Assembly: GCA_030425785.1 (NCBI GenBank) | Contig: JAUHYJ010000030.1 | Coordinates: 1 to 13,362, forward strand | Direction: 5' to 3' | DNA length: 13,362 bases | Source of the DNA: Acidimicrobiia bacterium | GTDB lineage: Bacteria; Actinomycetota; Acidimicrobiia; Acidimicrobiales; Ilumatobacteraceae | Shown here: positions 8,296 through 13,362 of the stretch, piece by piece | Layout: every line of letters starts with the position of its first letter | Numbering within the stretch: position 1 is the stretch's first letter | The notes under the pieces: generated by a model | Database searches by the model: none | Told to the model about the DNA's origin: nothing | What the model saw: only the letters and a program-made list of their open reading frames with translations | Translations under genes and position numbers: made by a program

Positions 8296-9018
8296 ATGAC
8301 CGAGACCCACAGCGTCACGCGCGAACACGCCGATGTCGTCGAACACCGACGGGTGGGGCGGTGGTCGGCAGCCAGGGTGACGGCGAGCACCTTCGGTGTC
8401 CTGGCCGGGCTGGGTGGGATCCGCCACGGCATCGGGGAGATCCGACAGGGCAACGTCGGCACCGACGGATTCTCCATCGAATCCTGGACGGACGGGCCGG
8501 TGGCCGAGCACTTCGACGGCGAGCCGGCGTTCACGGTGGTCCCGAACATGCTCGCGACCGGTGTGCTGGCGATCGGCGTCTCGTTGCTCGTGATCGTGTG
8601 GGCGGGTTGGTTCGTCGACCGACGCCACGGAGGGCTCGTGCTCTCGTTGCTGTCGGTCGCGATGCTGCTGCTCGGCGGCGGGGTCGGCCCGCCGGTCGTC
8701 GGTGCGCTGGCCGGCTGGCCCGGGAGCGCGATCGGCGACGGACTCGAACGCCGGCGCCATCGCTGGACGGGGCCACTCGGCGATCGTCTCGCACCGGCAT
8801 GGCCGTGGACGTACGCGCTCGCGACCTCGAACGGCATCTTCCTGATGGTCGTGTCGTTCGTGCTGATCACGAACTTCGGGTTGACGAACGCGGACCTGCT
8901 GCTCGCCAGCTTCGGCGCCTCGGTGATCCTGCTCGTCGCGACGACGGCGTGCGCGATCGCTCGCGACGTACGTCGCGAGCGAGACGCCGAAGCCCGGCTC
9001 AACGCTGCTCGACGATGA
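8296..9018 (+). CDS. Five-helix membrane protein of unknown function
   Basis: The protein has 240 residues. The ATG at 8296 follows GGAGGAGG (8283-8290) by 5 nt. Likely membrane segments are at about residues 28-46, 82-107, 113-140, 172-195 and 199-221. The first carries LGGIRHGIGEIRQGNVG (39-55), a His/Glu/Gln-rich turn, and the third ends in a glycine run GGGVGPP. The chain finishes with a charged cytoplasmic tail. The overall pattern (short first helix with HGxxEixQGN, then a loop ending in PAFTVVPN before the second helix) resembles a widespread uncharacterised prokaryotic membrane family, but no function is known. It is 104 bp from the AraC-type gene. Its last 20 bp overlap the end of the convergent PCu(A)C gene. 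Confidence 0.8.
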   Translation: MTETHSVTREHADVVEHRRVGRWSAARVTASTFGVLAGLGGIRHGIGEIRQGNVGTDGFSIESWTDGPVAEHFDGEPAFTVVPNMLATGVLAIGVSLLVIVWAGWFVDRRHGGLVLSLLSVAMLLLGGGVGPPVVGALAGWPGSAIGDGLERRRHRWTGPLGDRLAPAWPWTYALATSNGIFLMVVSFVLITNFGLTNADLLLASFGASVILLVATTACAIARDVRRERDAEARLNAARR

Positions 9019-9436
9019 CGGTGGCCACCACCGGATCGGCCCCGTCGAGTTCGACGTCGACCGCGATCTCGTCCCCTTCGGCCAAGGGTGCGGTGAGGCC
9101 GAGGCACATCAGGTGGAGACCGTTCGGTTCCATCTCGATCCGGCCGCCGGCGGCGAGCTCGAGCACGGCCGAGGGCGCATCACCCATGCTCGCCACGTCG
9201 TCGTCGAACGTCGACAGGTGCGGCACGACCACCGCGCAGACCGGCGACGTCGCGCCCAGGTATCGGCTCGGTGCCGCGCCCCGGTTCTCGATCGTGACGT
9301 AGAACGCGGCGCTGTCGACACCCGGCGGCGTCGGACGGGTCCACGCGTCCACCACGACCACGCCCCCGCTCGCGCCACATCCGGCGACGAGCAACGCGAC
9401 GCATGCGACCGACCCGATGCGGCGCCGCGTCCTCAC
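8999..9436 (-). CDS. PCu(A)C-type periplasmic copper chaperone lipoprotein (DUF461)
   Basis: The protein has 145 residues from a GTG at 9436, which overlaps the stop of the SCO gene by four bases (GTGA). That start gives a compact lipoprotein signal: RTRRRIG, a hydrophobic core, and the lipobox VAGC with Cys20. A start at 9490 would add an 18-residue Arg-rich extension within SCO and is less likely. The mature part has the PCu(A)C motif: His and Met ten residues apart (PHLSTF...ASM), then, after 23 residues (21 is more usual), HLM in GLHLMCLGL. The domain opening DAWTRPTPPGVDSAAFYVTIEN is also typical. The family carries Cu(I) outside the membrane and helps to build the CuA centre of cytochrome c oxidase, usually with SCO, whose gene precedes it here. 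Confidence 0.9.
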   Translation of the reverse strand: MRTRRRIGSVACVALLVAGCGASGGVVVVDAWTRPTPPGVDSAAFYVTIENRGAAPSRYLGATSPVCAVVVPHLSTFDDDVASMGDAPSAVLELAAGGRIEMEPNGLHLMCLGLTAPLAEGDEIAVDVELDGADPVVATVIVEQR

Positions 9437-10119
9437 GACAGTTCGCGCAGATCGGCGACGAGCCGGTCGACGTCGAGCAGTGCGGGCCACACGATGCGCA
9501 GGTGACCGTCGCCGTCGATCCCCATCAGGGTCGACGTGTGGTCCATCGTGTAGCCACCACCCTCGATCGCCTCGCCCTCGGCGAAGAACACGCCGTACTG
9601 GCTCGCGACCCGCTCGACGGCCTCGGGTTCGCCGGTCGCTCCCTCGAACGTCGGGTCGAACGACCGCACGTAGTCGCCGAGCCGGTCGAGCTCGTCACGG
9701 GCCGGGTCGATCGACACCAGGAGCAGGCGGACGTCCTCGGCATCGTCGCCCAGTTGCCGCCGTGCGGCCGCGACCTGTGCGAGCGTCGTCGGGCAGACGT
9801 CGGGACACGACGTGTAGCCGAAGTAGACGAGCAACAGGTCGCCCCGGTAGTCGGCGAGGTCGACCGGCGTGCCGTCGCTGCGGACCAAGCCCTCCATCGA
9901 CGGCGCCGCGGTCGGCGCCTGCATCACGGTGCCCGAGTACGGATGCGGCCGGAGCAGGCCGAGCCCGAACCAGACGATCGCAGCCACGACGACGAGGCCG
10001 GCGACCACGAAGCCGACACGGCGGACCCGGCGGCGCGGGTCGCGACCGCCGACCCGGGCGTCGTGCCCGGTCGTGGGAGGCGCGGTGGGAGGCGTCGTGG
10101 GAGGCGTGGTGGCGGTCAT
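9433..10119 (-). CDS. SCO1/SenC-family copper chaperone for cytochrome c oxidase
   Basis: The protein has 228 residues. A Thr/Pro-rich and then Arg-rich cytoplasmic N-terminus leads into a single membrane anchor (about residues 35-55) and an external thioredoxin-like domain. The copper ligands are present: Cys105 and Cys109 in TSCPDVCP and His194 in TMDHTST. LVSIDPARD (134-142) is the usual SCO strand-turn. SCO proteins deliver copper to, or reduce the cysteines of, the CuA site of oxidase subunit II. The ATG at 10119 overlaps the preceding stop by four bases (ATGA), and no separate ribosome site is seen, so translation is probably coupled. The N-terminal TTPP repeats come from a 12-bp tandem repeat. 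Confidence 0.92.
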   Translation of the reverse strand: MTATTPPTTPPTAPPTTGHDARVGGRDPRRRVRRVGFVVAGLVVVAAIVWFGLGLLRPHPYSGTVMQAPTAAPSMEGLVRSDGTPVDLADYRGDLLLVYFGYTSCPDVCPTTLAQVAAARRQLGDDAEDVRLLLVSIDPARDELDRLGDYVRSFDPTFEGATGEPEAVERVASQYGVFFAEGEAIEGGGYTMDHTSTLMGIDGDGHLRIVWPALLDVDRLVADLRELS

Positions 10120-10120
10120 G
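10073..10120 (-). repeat. 12-bp tandem repeat coding for Thr/Pro repeats in the SCO N-terminus
   Basis: Three near-identical 12-bp units of the form GTGGGAGGCGnn run from 10073 to 10108, with a degenerate fourth to 10120. On the minus strand they code for repeated T-T/A-P-P tetrapeptides right after the start Met. The in-frame unit length means copy-number change would leave the frame open. Confidence 0.8.
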
Positions 10121-10757
10121 GGTAGCACTGGAACGCGTGGGCGGCCTCGTAGGCGAACGACGCGAAGCCGCCGTCGTTGCGGAGCTCGCCGCCGAGCACG
10201 TCGATGTGGCGGACGAGCTTGTCGGCGTCGCCGGTGAGGGTCAGGTAGCGGTACTCGCCGCGGATCATGCCGAGCCCGTCGACGAGGGCGTAGCTGGGAG
10301 CGAAGACGTCGACATCGGTCGAACGGCGGAACCCGAGACCGACGACGTTCTCGATCTGACCGTCCGAGCCCGACAGCCAGGGCCAATCCGCATCGATGGC
10401 GGCGCGCGCACGGTCGACATCGGCGAGATCGGGGTCGGGATCGAGCACGATCGTGACCACACGGAACGGAGTCCCCCCGAGATCGACCCCCGATTCCACA
10501 CGCGACCGCACCTGCCGCATCGTCGACTCGACGGCGTCGCACGCGTCGTCACAGCCGAGCGGCACGAAGGTGTAGAGCGTGATCGCGCCCCGTGCGTCCT
10601 CGCTCGTGACCGTCGCCCCCGTCTGATCGACGAGCGCGTAGCCGGGTGCGAGCCGGAGCCGCGGAAGCACCTGGATGGGCTGGAACACGGCGAACGCGAT
10701 CGCCGCGAGCGCCACCACGACCATCACCGCACCGAGGACCTTTGCCCATCGTGGCAC
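10116..10757 (-). CDS. SCO-like thioredoxin-fold protein lacking the third copper ligand
   Basis: The protein has 213 residues from a GTG at 10757; GAGG lies 9 nt upstream. It has one N-terminal membrane anchor (about 8-25), then an external domain. FVPLGCDDACDAV (64-76) contains the SCO-type CxxxC (Cys69, Cys73) at the usual place, and VVTIVLDPDPD (100-110) matches the strand-turn seen in SCO. The His expected before the last strand is missing: the aligned stretch is VFAPSYALVD (151-160). Without it, tight copper binding is doubtful; a thiol-disulfide role in preparing CuA cysteines or SCO is possible. A lone Cys211 sits near the C-terminus (FQCYP). It is first in the operon with SCO and PCu(A)C, and overlaps SCO by four bases. 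An exported redoxin of another kind is an alternative. Confidence 0.82.
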   Translation of the reverse strand: MPRWAKVLGAVMVVVALAAIAFAVFQPIQVLPRLRLAPGYALVDQTGATVTSEDARGAITLYTFVPLGCDDACDAVESTMRQVRSRVESGVDLGGTPFRVVTIVLDPDPDLADVDRARAAIDADWPWLSGSDGQIENVVGLGFRRSTDVDVFAPSYALVDGLGMIRGEYRYLTLTGDADKLVRHIDVLGGELRNDGGFASFAYEAAHAFQCYP

Positions 10758-10778
10758 TCGCCAATCCTCGGTACCGTC

Positions 10779-11207
10779 ATGACGGTGAGGGATCTCGTTC
10801 GACGCTTCGCCGTCCCGGTGGTGATCTTGGTCTCGCTGAGCGCCGGCGGCCTCGCGATGTGCGGGCTGCCCGGCGACAGCCTGGACGACGACGCCGGGAT
10901 CGCCGGCACGTACGTCGTCAACGGTGTCGACCCGACCGACGTCGAGTACTCCGGCACCGTCACCATCAGGCCTCGCGACGACGGTCGCTACGACGTCCAG
11001 TGGCTCGTCACCGGCGCGATCCAGACCGGCGTCGGCGACCTCGTCGGCGACCGGTTCACCGTCGAGTGGTCGACCGTCGACTCGCCCCGCGGCACCGCCG
11101 GCGGCACGGCCGAGTACGTCGTCCAGAGCGACGGACGGCTCGTCGGCGAGCGGAGCGTCGACGGCGTCGACGCCGTGGGCACCGAGGAGATCTTCCCCGA
11201 ACCCTGA
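10779..11207 (+). CDS. Small secreted or lipid-anchored beta-rich protein, unknown function
   Basis: The protein has 142 residues. The N-terminus (VRRFAVPVVILVSLSAGGLAMCG, from residue 7) is a signal sequence; Cys28 could be lipidated, but the Met before it makes LAMC an atypical lipobox. The rest reads as repeated beta strands: GTYVVNGVDP, YSGTVTI, YDVQWLVTG, GVGDLVGDRFTVEW, GTAEYVV, GERSV. The pattern of Gly-Thr-Tyr, Tyr-Ser-Gly-Thr-Val and Gly-Val-Gly strands is seen in small exported proteins annotated loosely as fibronectin-binding-like, with no proven role. Its ATG is only 21 bp from the divergent GTG of the SCO-like gene. Its stop is 20 bp from that of the cytochrome fusion gene. It has no clear ribosome site. 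The family-like strand pattern supports a real gene. Confidence 0.68.
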   Translation: MTVRDLVRRFAVPVVILVSLSAGGLAMCGLPGDSLDDDAGIAGTYVVNGVDPTDVEYSGTVTIRPRDDGRYDVQWLVTGAIQTGVGDLVGDRFTVEWSTVDSPRGTAGGTAEYVVQSDGRLVGERSVDGVDAVGTEEIFPEP

Positions 11208-11227: not shown

Positions 11228-13362
11228 TCACGGCTGCCCACCCTGGAGCGACATGAGGTATTCGAGCAGTGCGTCGAGCTGCTCGTCGCTCAGTCGCTCG
11301 TCGTAGATCTGCAGCATCTGGCCGGCACGATACCCATCGACGATGTAGGCGTCGGGGTCGAGGATCGACTGCCGCAGGTACTCGTCGGCACTCATGCCGG
11401 GGATGCGGGTGGCAGCCGTGTCGGCGATGCCCGCGAGCGACGGGCCGACTCGATCGTCGCCCGGGTCGACCGAGTGGCAGACGTCGCACGACCCCTGGGA
11501 CTGGTCGTTGAAGACCTCCCGGCCCTCGGCGGCGCCCGGCGGTGGCGGGACGTCGACGGCGGTGACCACGAGGCGTTCGCCGGGCTCGAGCGACGGCGTC
11601 CCCCGATAGAGCTCGGTGACCGTCGCGCCCTCGACCAGCTCGATCGCGATCGGCGCCGACCGATCGGGCAGTGCCACGTCGACGATGCCGATCGCGGTGG
11701 CACCATCGCGCCCCACCGTCTGCTCGCCGACCGCATCGCCGCCGCTGCGCACGACGACCGACACGTCGTCGCCGAGGCGCCCCGTCGTGTCAGGCTGGCC
11801 TTCGAGCTGGTAGCCGGGGGTGTGGTCGACGATGACCCACACGGCCGTCTCGTCGACGTTCCCCCGGTACGGCGCGCGGGTCGCGAGCACGACGCCGACG
11901 ACCGATGCCACCACGACCAGCCCGGCGCCGACCATCCGCCGAGCCGTGAAGGACGACGTCGACAGGTCGCCGTGCCGGTTGGGCGCCTCGACCGCAGCGA
12001 CGAGTTCGCCGGGTGCCACGAAGTCCTCGCTCGCGACCCCGCTCCAGCGGCGCGGGACGTGCGGGGCTCGCGTGCCGGCGAGCCGCTCGTCGAGGATCGT
12101 GTTGCCGAGGCCGTAGGCACAGTCGTCCGGCGCGCAGCCGACGACGTGCACGTCGGTGGCACCGGCGCGGTCGAGCGACGCGACGGCATTGGCGTGCAAC
12201 ATGCCCGAACACGCGACCTCGACGACCACGACGTCGTCGTCGAGCGCCTGCAGCGCGTCGACGCCTCCGGCAGCGCTGGCGTGGCGTGCACACGCGATCA
12301 CGACGCGCCGACCGGCGGGGTCGATGCCGTCACCGACCGCGTGCTCGTAGCCGGGGAGGCGCATCGCATCGAACGAGCACGACCCGATGCAGATGCCGCA
12401 TCCGACGCACGCCCCGGCGTCGACGACGGCGATCGGCCGCCGGGCCTGGATACCCGACTCGGCGTCGGCCGCCGACAGTTCGGCCATGTCGAGGGCGAGA
12501 TACGGGCAGTCGATCACGCACAGCTCGCAGCCGGTGCACGCATCCGTATCGATCTCGACCACCGGTGTGGGTGCGGATGCGACGTGCGGGGCGATCACCG
12601 CGATCGCGACGAGCGAGGTCAGGACGAGCACCGCGATCCATGCCCACGAGCCGAGCAGCGGCGGCAGCAGGAACAGGACGAACGGGTCGAGCGGCAGCCC
12701 TCCGACGGTGCGCGCCGGCGAGGCCTGCTCGAGGATCTCGGCCGGGAAGGCGATCGACGCCAGGACCAGCGCGCCGAGCATGATCGCCATCCACTTCCGT
12801 GGCGGCACGATCGCGAGCCTCGAGCGCCGCAGGTGCCGCCACAGCGCGAACCCGATCACACCGGTCAACAGCAGGTGCACCGTCCAGATGACGAACAGCA
12901 CCCCCCAACCCGAGCCGGCATTCGGGCCGTACACGTTGCGGACCAGCAGGTCGGACACCGCGCCCACGCCGCCGAACAGGTTCGCGACCGCCTCGTTGAG
13001 CGCCTGGGCGCGCTCGTCCCACACGAGCCAGTAGCCGGTGACACCGGCCAGCCAGACCACGACCAGCGCGACGACACCCGACGTCCACCGCCACCGACGC
13101 GGGCCGCGGAACCGGCCCGCGACGAAGATCCGCCATGCGTGCACCAGGGTCGTCAGGACCAGCGCGGCCGACGCATAGCGATGCACCGTGCGGACGACCG
13201 ACTGGATCGGATGGTCGTGCATCCGCTCGACCGCTCGGTGCGAGGCGTCGAACCCGAAGCCGTAGAACAGCGTGACGTACACGCCGGTGACGATCACGAT
13301 CGCCAGCAGGAACACGCTGATGGTGCCGGCGTGCGGGAGCGGGTTGAGCCGGTTCGAGCGCA
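11228..13362 (-). CDS. Cytochrome b - 2x[4Fe-4S] ferredoxin - MvhD/FrhD - cytochrome c fusion, 5' end beyond window
   Basis: The frame is open from the stop at 11228-11230 to the window edge: 710 visible residues, numbered here from the codon at 13360. A GTG at 13315 is internal, because the 15 codons before it read NPLPHAG..., a normal cytochrome b start region. Domains in order: cytochrome b N-terminal type (1-185) with four helices and two His pairs, each 14 apart (60/74 and 162/176), for two b hemes; two more helices (about 192-208 and 227-257); a ferredoxin domain with CTGCELCVIDCP (Cys275-285) and CVGCGICIGSC (Cys318-328) for two [4Fe-4S]; an MvhD/FrhD domain (352-425) with CSG (Cys384) and GCAPDDC (Cys409, Cys414); a helix (476-495); a beta-rich region (500-605); and a cytochrome c domain with CDVCH (625-629) and probable ligand Met682. 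The helix count puts iron-sulfur domains inside and cytochrome c outside. MvhD domains normally join heterodisulfide reductase to hydrogenase, so electron transfer between a cytoplasmic carrier, the quinone pool and external cytochromes is inferred. The partner is unknown. Confidence 0.9.
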   Translation of the reverse strand, partial: RSNRLNPLPHAGTISVFLLAIVIVTGVYVTLFYGFGFDASHRAVERMHDHPIQSVVRTVHRYASAALVLTTLVHAWRIFVAGRFRGPRRWRWTSGVVALVVVWLAGVTGYWLVWDERAQALNEAVANLFGGVGAVSDLLVRNVYGPNAGSGWGVLFVIWTVHLLLTGVIGFALWRHLRRSRLAIVPPRKWMAIMLGALVLASIAFPAEILEQASPARTVGGLPLDPFVLFLLPPLLGSWAWIAVLVLTSLVAIAVIAPHVASAPTPVVEIDTDACTGCELCVIDCPYLALDMAELSAADAESGIQARRPIAVVDAGACVGCGICIGSCSFDAMRLPGYEHAVGDGIDPAGRRVVIACARHASAAGGVDALQALDDDVVVVEVACSGMLHANAVASLDRAGATDVHVVGCAPDDCAYGLGNTILDERLAGTRAPHVPRRWSGVASEDFVAPGELVAAVEAPNRHGDLSTSSFTARRMVGAGLVVVASVVGVVLATRAPYRGNVDETAVWVIVDHTPGYQLEGQPDTTGRLGDDVSVVVRSGGDAVGEQTVGRDGATAIGIVDVALPDRSAPIAIELVEGATVTELYRGTPSLEPGERLVVTAVDVPPPPGAAEGREVFNDQSQGSCDVCHSVDPGDDRVGPSLAGIADTAATRIPGMSADEYLRQSILDPDAYIVDGYRAGQMLQIYDERLSDEQLDALLEYLMSLQGGQP

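Follow-up and report, generated by a model that had tools for sequence, protein, structure and literature searches.

What can a cell do with one protein in which a membrane cytochrome b, a ferredoxin, a FlpD domain and a cytochrome c are joined end to end? The question is raised by a gene (hereafter the fusion gene) found in a 13,362-nucleotide stretch of DNA, the window, from an Acidimicrobiia bacterium of the family Ilumatobacteraceae (contig JAUHYJ010000030.1, assembly GCA_030425785.1). The window is the entire contig C568 of a metagenome-assembled genome (MAG) of 4.4 Mb, in 857 contigs and 83% complete. The protein is real and conserved, uncharacterised within the literature searched, and seems to be a bc-type cytochrome b that has been rewired to a terminal reductase. 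Its cytochrome b-ferredoxin-FlpD part (hereafter the core) travels with B-family heme-copper reductases, an association that is new here.

Architecture and conservation of the fusion protein

The fusion gene is a single open frame of 710 codons on the minus strand (positions 11228-13360), with no internal stop. Since the window spans the complete contig, the gene runs off its edge and the 5' end is cut. The complete version of the protein, P0001, has 738 amino acids, adds 28 N-terminal residues and differs from the window at 3 of the 710 residues; residue numbers given here are those of P0001. Four Pfam domains, all above cut-off, follow one another in the order Cytochrome_B (52 bits versus a cut-off of 27.2), Fer4-type ferredoxin (matched by several models), FlpD (PF02662; 32 versus 22.3) and Cytochrom_C (33.7 versus 21.3), in agreement with the uninterrupted polypeptide that a preliminary description of the window had read from its motifs. 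In the predicted model, a seventh transmembrane helix and a beta-strand domain sit between FlpD and cytochrome c; the beta domain of the window protein has no Pfam match, FixG_C included, and falls in no named family. The positions of all parts are collected in Table 1.

Among the best 120 of 308 homologues, the alignment spans at least 97% of the fusion protein in 118, and 119 keep a CxxCH motif downstream of the ferredoxins, the exception being P0062; where the organism is named, it is Ilumatobacter, Acidimicrobiales or Acidimicrobiia. Moreover, 20 class-level loci were picked from 66 FlpD-bearing genomes (of 395) and in all of them the fusion is in one frame with CxxCH, a count that is not a frequency because the loci were selected for long open frames. 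The distribution within the family is sparse: near-full relatives were found in 6 of 200 genomes, one of them shortened (G067, locus L116, where the frame stops before CxxCH) and one split across two contigs (G090), while most remaining matches of this search cover the cytochrome b part only. The gene is patchy even inside the genus, since 4 of 10 genomes carry it and two single-contig genomes have no FlpD. Plasmid records gave partial matches only, in 3 records.

The residues that would hold the cofactors were followed in an alignment of 80 sequences taken from the 120 listed homologues, with identities of 46-89% to the first sequence. The histidines of the two putative b-heme pairs, H88/H102 and H190/H204 (each H-x13-H), the eight ferredoxin cysteines (303-306-309-313 and 346-349-352-356), and the candidate heme c ligands C653-x-x-C656-H657 and Met 710 all show conservation of 90% or more, up to invariance; the preliminary description had read these motifs in the window. 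The same holds for Cys 385, 412, 437 and 442 of the FlpD domain and for His 388. The MvhD-type CSG/GCxxxDC pattern noticed earlier is borne out, with the correction that in place of the classical CxxC of MvhD the second cysteine position is occupied by His 388 (C-x-x-H; His in at least 90% of the 80 sequences). FlpD, or MvhD, is a small soluble [2Fe-2S] subunit that links HdrABC with hydrogenase or formate dehydrogenase. The CSG and GCxxxDC motifs of the fusion protein align to the solved MvhD with an E-value of 4e-6; unlike MvhD/FrhD, the fusion protein is membrane-bound and has C-x-x-H for CxxC, and it was not counted as an orthologue.

The membrane part derives from a bc-type cytochrome b. 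It shares with the cytochrome b of bc1 and b6f complexes (QcrB, PetB/PetD) the fold and the H-x13/14-H heme pairs in helices B and D, and its AlphaFold model superposes on bc1 cytochrome b. According to the model, the iron-sulfur/FlpD module has apparently been inserted on the cytoplasmic side, before the last helix of the cytochrome b part; the seventh helix would take the position of helix G, and the last helix of cytochrome b would be missing. The quinol-site motifs have changed as well. Bc-type cytochromes b oxidise quinol with the motifs PEWY and PWD/PWG. PWD was found in 0 of 321 sequences (VWD or IWD in 302, LWD or AWD in 8, PWN in 1, no match in 10) and PEWY is not retained in the core proteins compared. 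The corresponding loop reads DPFV in the 5 acidimicrobial sequences compared; its Asp 253 is invariant in the 80 aligned homologues, and the other cores compared mostly have Asp at this position (Asn in L018). Because these motifs are lost, the fusion protein is filed as a derivative and not as a bc1/b6f subunit. It also scores below the cut-off of the NCBIfam model of ExtP cytochrome b (NF040969; 69 versus 290 bits).

Table 1. Features of the fusion gene and of the copper genes downstream of it. Residues follow P0001; positions are those of the window.
Feature	Residues	Position	Strand	Basis
Fusion gene: cytochrome b, 2x[4Fe-4S], FlpD, seventh transmembrane helix, beta domain, cytochrome c; 5' end cut		11228..13360	-	Open reading frame, Pfam, homologues, alignment
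Cytochrome b helices A-D, two H-x13-H putative heme pairs	36-206	12827..13339	-	Pfam, alignment, model
Two more predicted helices (E and F of bc-type cytochrome b), altered quinol-site loop LDPFVLFLL	216-288	12581..12799	-	Model
Two [4Fe-4S] ferredoxin motifs	300-360	12365..12547	-	Pfam, alignment
FlpD domain with C-x-x-H, CSG, GCxxxDC	380-455	12080..12307	-	Pfam, comparison with MvhD
Predicted seventh transmembrane helix, probable helix G position of cytochrome b	501-523	11876..11944	-	Model; placement from aligned ranges
Predicted periplasmic beta-strand domain	530-632	11549..11857	-	Model; immunoglobulin-like in our judgement
Cytochrome c domain; CDVCH heme site at 11474-11488	638-732	11249..11533	-	Pfam
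SCO1/SenC-like copper or thiol protein, next gene downstream of fusion		10116..10784	-	Pfam; also beside fusion in relatives
SCO1/SenC		9433..10125	-	Domain match
PCu(A)C copper chaperone		8999..9490	-	Domain match

The core and its heme-copper neighbours

A scan of genome contigs for the core gave 230 loci, of which the best 80 were kept, and three forms of the protein were met. In Gammaproteobacteria the core mostly stops shortly past FlpD (stop-to-stop frames mostly of 500-600 amino acids); in MAGs of Chloroflexi, delta, Balneolota, Verrucomicrobiota and Nitrospinota it is followed by the helix and the beta domain (mostly 680-760 amino acids); in Acidimicrobiia the cytochrome c comes after these. 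CxxCH past the ferredoxins occurs in 0 of 120 homologues of a Chloroflexi query (best 120 of 1067) and in 0 of 81 cores in loci L008-L085. The cytochrome c fusion is confined to Acidimicrobiia in the sampled sequences, with one possible exception in print, RME88945.1 (PMC8756737). Thioalkalivibrio denitrificans has two copies of the core, separated by a gene for a 185-amino-acid protein without Pfam match (L012, 11460-12017).

These 80 loci tie the core to B-family oxygen reductases and probable nitric oxide reductases in about seven phylum-level groups, as judged by record titles. Upstream sequence of at least 3.3 kb is available at 54 loci, and in 51 of them the active-site Tyr of COX1 is replaced, by alignment, with Gln; the other three are the acidimicrobial L007, which has Tyr, and L023 and L072, which have no readable residue (L023 shows COX1 in part, and L072 has no COX1 above 200 bits). 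Of the 49 loci that show at least 5 kb, 48 have a CoxII with a CuA site. Gln at this position is given for eNOR in Table A4 of PMC8756737, in its available part, and the Gln-type neighbours probably reduce nitric oxide, judging from this residue. Probable nitric oxide reductases of the eNOR type are the usual neighbours of the core and not its relatives. The acidimicrobial partner differs from them in keeping the Tyr: COX1 is Tyr-type in 5 family genomes (L115-L119; the contig of L119 is also that of L007) and in 19 of the 20 class-level loci, with the oxidase out of view in one (L162). COX1 of L115 is close to ba3-type chains (E-values of 9e-146 to 3eh3 and 1e-142 to 1ehk), so that, from its sequence, the partner in Acidimicrobiia is classified as a Tyr-type, ba3-like oxygen reductase of the B-family.

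Many non-acidimicrobial loci have, close to the core, a second, divergent COX1-like gene with GH.LQF or similar in place of the Tyr/Gln motif (L044, 4822-6264; L071, 13114-14580; and others). In L163, L165, L167, L169, L171-L173 and L176 a second cytochrome c-domain match directly follows the fusion and probably belongs to a separate small cytochrome c gene. FlpD matches in frames of about 480-500 amino acids in other acidimicrobial genomes were set aside: the core was found beside a Tyr- or Gln-type COX1 in 0 of 8 such regions, one of which (L180, a 4-kb contig) has a frame with core-like motifs.

Where contigs permit, the family loci have the order CoxII-CoxI-fusion-SCO-SCO-PCu(A)C on one strand, next to a divergent operon encoding a cytochrome c, a GltD-like FAD/NAD(P) protein with ferredoxin motifs, a cytochrome b, subunit IV, a Rieske protein and a cytochrome c. 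The divergent operon of the MAG lies on contig C95 (L121, 23-5587), where cytochrome b and subunit IV are fused and a TlpA-like protein is also encoded; the Pfam identities of its genes rest on the L115 relatives. The operon would encode an unusual bc complex accompanied by an NAD(P)H-type flavoprotein. A Rieske gene was otherwise found in 3 of the 20 class-level loci and in 1 of the 80 scan loci (L007); most loci examined have none beside the fusion or core, in contrast to bc1/b6f complexes, where the Rieske protein is encoded alongside cytochrome b.

A possible electron wire to CuA

The reading that we tentatively prefer, and that in our estimate falls just short of an even chance, is that the fusion protein works for a B-family heme-copper oxygen reductase, either as its dedicated electron-transfer subunit or as a partner that binds it tightly. 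Two [4Fe-4S] clusters and the [2Fe-2S] site of FlpD would lie on the cytoplasmic face, at the place where bc1 reduces quinone close to heme bH. The donor would be reduced ferredoxin or an NAD(P)H flavoprotein of the cytoplasm. Its electrons would be accepted at FlpD or at the ferredoxin domain, pass the membrane by way of the two b hemes and reach CuA, and then oxygen, through the tethered cytochrome c on the outer side. In other phyla the core without cytochrome c would serve the Gln-type, eNOR-like reductases likewise. This proposal is built on the open frame, its domains, the conserved ligand motifs, the fold of the model and the oxidases encoded nearby in relatives; it presumes that all cofactors are loaded, that electrons flow outward from such a donor and that the protein touches the oxidase. 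A conduit to CuA fits best because the core is kept with two types of active site and gains a cytochrome c where the partner reduces oxygen. The preliminary description had imagined a direct transmembrane wire between a low-potential carrier and the cytochrome chain, and the idea is favoured by the conserved motifs, the fit of the model to bc1 cytochrome b and the genomic link with a CuA oxidase.

As to the partners suggested earlier, the oxidase has been found as the usual neighbour in relatives and HdrA has not: in the 83% complete MAG the fusion itself is the single FlpD match, and the HdrA2 search gave nothing above its strict cut-off (the fusion protein reaches 41 versus 1100 bits with NF040770). 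A partnership with HdrABC was rejected on these grounds, hydrogenase families not having been searched for.

Several observations weigh against an electron wire to CuA. The gene has the patchy occurrence described above, both in the family (6 of 200 genomes) and in the genus (4 of 10, with two single-contig genomes lacking it). CoxII and CoxI of the MAG were not found beside the C95 operon and presumably fall in the gap between C568 and C95. The GltD-like gene is adjacent in only 3 of the 20 class-level loci (in three of the remaining loci this side is shorter than 1 kb or no oxidase is shown), and it may serve another complex, since its operon has a cytochrome b and a Rieske protein of its own. 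NuoF occurs in only 4 of the 80 loci (three Nitrospinota and one delta MAG), there beside the core; in L071 and L078 a NuoF-like gene lies between two core copies. Furthermore, the route is a poor one for energy conservation, because a direct wire from the cytoplasm to CuA spends membrane potential. Finally, the adjoining copper chaperones suit an assembly role equally well.

Alternative explanations

Such a role, in which a transmembrane reductase would carry cytoplasmic electrons outward to Cu(II) or to the Cys pairs of SCO or CoxII while CuA and CuB are loaded, is unlikely but is the strongest of the alternatives. The window has two SCO genes and PCu(A)C downstream of the fusion; among the 20 class-level loci, 13 show the SCO pair and 7 show PCu(A)C, 6 of the remaining loci having the fusion near the edge of a contig, and an SCO1-type match is present in 27 of the 80 scan stretches, on either strand and without constant adjacency. 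CcoG/FixG carries an immunoglobulin-like tail, and the tail of the relative L044 has a weak Filamin (immunoglobulin-like) match, below cut-off (E-value 0.024). The action would resemble, with no kinship implied, that of CcoG (FixG/RdxA), which serves as cupric reductase when cbb3 oxidase is assembled and is likewise a membrane protein with two [4Fe-4S] motifs (PMC8267372). The copper chaperones and this precedent keep an assembly reductase viable. Against it, the Pfam matches shared with CcoG/FixG are limited to generic ferredoxin motifs, no CcoG or FixG_C domain is among the matches of the fusion protein or its beta domain, the extra cytochrome c with its Met ligand is better suited to feeding CuA, and a copper reductase would have no obvious need of FlpD or of two b hemes.

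Less probable still is a bc-type complex without Rieske protein that would bifurcate quinol, one electron passing to cytochrome c and CuA and the other travelling via bL and bH into the iron-sulfur/FlpD module and on to NAD(P)+ or ferredoxin. Both heme pairs of a bc-type cytochrome b are present, in the window's group the altered quinol-site loop still contains an acidic residue, the low-potential module is apparently on the bH side, and NAD(P)H-type flavoproteins are nearby in some lineages. Against this reading, PWD is absent and PEWY lost, and the quinone site is hypothetical.

A reverse flow, from a periplasmic cytochrome c to cytoplasmic ferredoxin or NAD(P)+ for biosynthesis or CO2 fixation, is very improbable. 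The components would be reversible in principle and a gene for the inorganic carbon transporter DabA opens the window; this flow would, however, run uphill against both the redox and the electrical gradient with no visible drive, the usual neighbour is a terminal reductase, and the large subunit of RuBisCO was not found in the incomplete MAG. The supply of reductant for carbon fixation, offered as an option in the preliminary description, finds no support in these data, other fixation pathways not having been searched for. The joining of separate genes by misassembly or a missed frameshift, conceivable in so fragmented a MAG, can be dismissed in view of the independent full-length homologues (118 of 120) and of the 20 single-frame class-level loci with CxxCH.

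Relation to published work and significance

The domain combination is already in print, as table rows: Table A3, in the appendix of PMC8756737, lists RME88945.1 as an open reading frame that carries cytochrome b6, DMSOR_beta-like and FlpD domains together with a homologue of C1-type cytochrome c. These rows are the only published mention met in the literature searched. This was also the only work found on FlpD together with nitric oxide reductase. The earlier statement that no characterised enzyme has this architecture holds within the literature searched (Murali et al., 2024, on eNOR, lies outside this scope), where no account of the function of the fusion or core protein was found, and the available parts of PMC11707229, PMC3578206, PMC10839748, PMC11388526, PMC8756737, PMC13274419, PMC8114936, PMC10734462 and PMC8267372 contain none.

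The neighbourhood with an oxygen reductase or a probable nitric oxide reductase points to an unstudied branch of respiration. If the protein feeds electrons to CuA, the picture of CuA reductases served from the quinol pool via cytochrome c or cupredoxins would be incomplete here, possibly also in denitrifiers that control the release of nitrous oxide. An assembly reductase would fill a gap among the maturation factors of eNOR-like and ba3-like enzymes. Quinol bifurcation would mean a new respiratory complex in which the terminal reductase itself pays for a strong reductant, the outside acceptor being oxygen in Acidimicrobiia and nitric oxide in many other phyla.

Other features of the window

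The overlap between the PCu(A)C and SCO1 genes is possibly overestimated because the start codon of PCu(A)C is uncertain, and the start of the SCO1/SenC-like gene at 10116-10784 is provisional. At about 10785-11207, between the fusion and SCO genes, a small lipoprotein-like frame runs on the opposite (plus) strand, and a similar frame is found in L115. The DabA gene (PF10070, 624 bits) is followed by a gene for a P-II-like protein, both on the plus strand within positions 1-2341.
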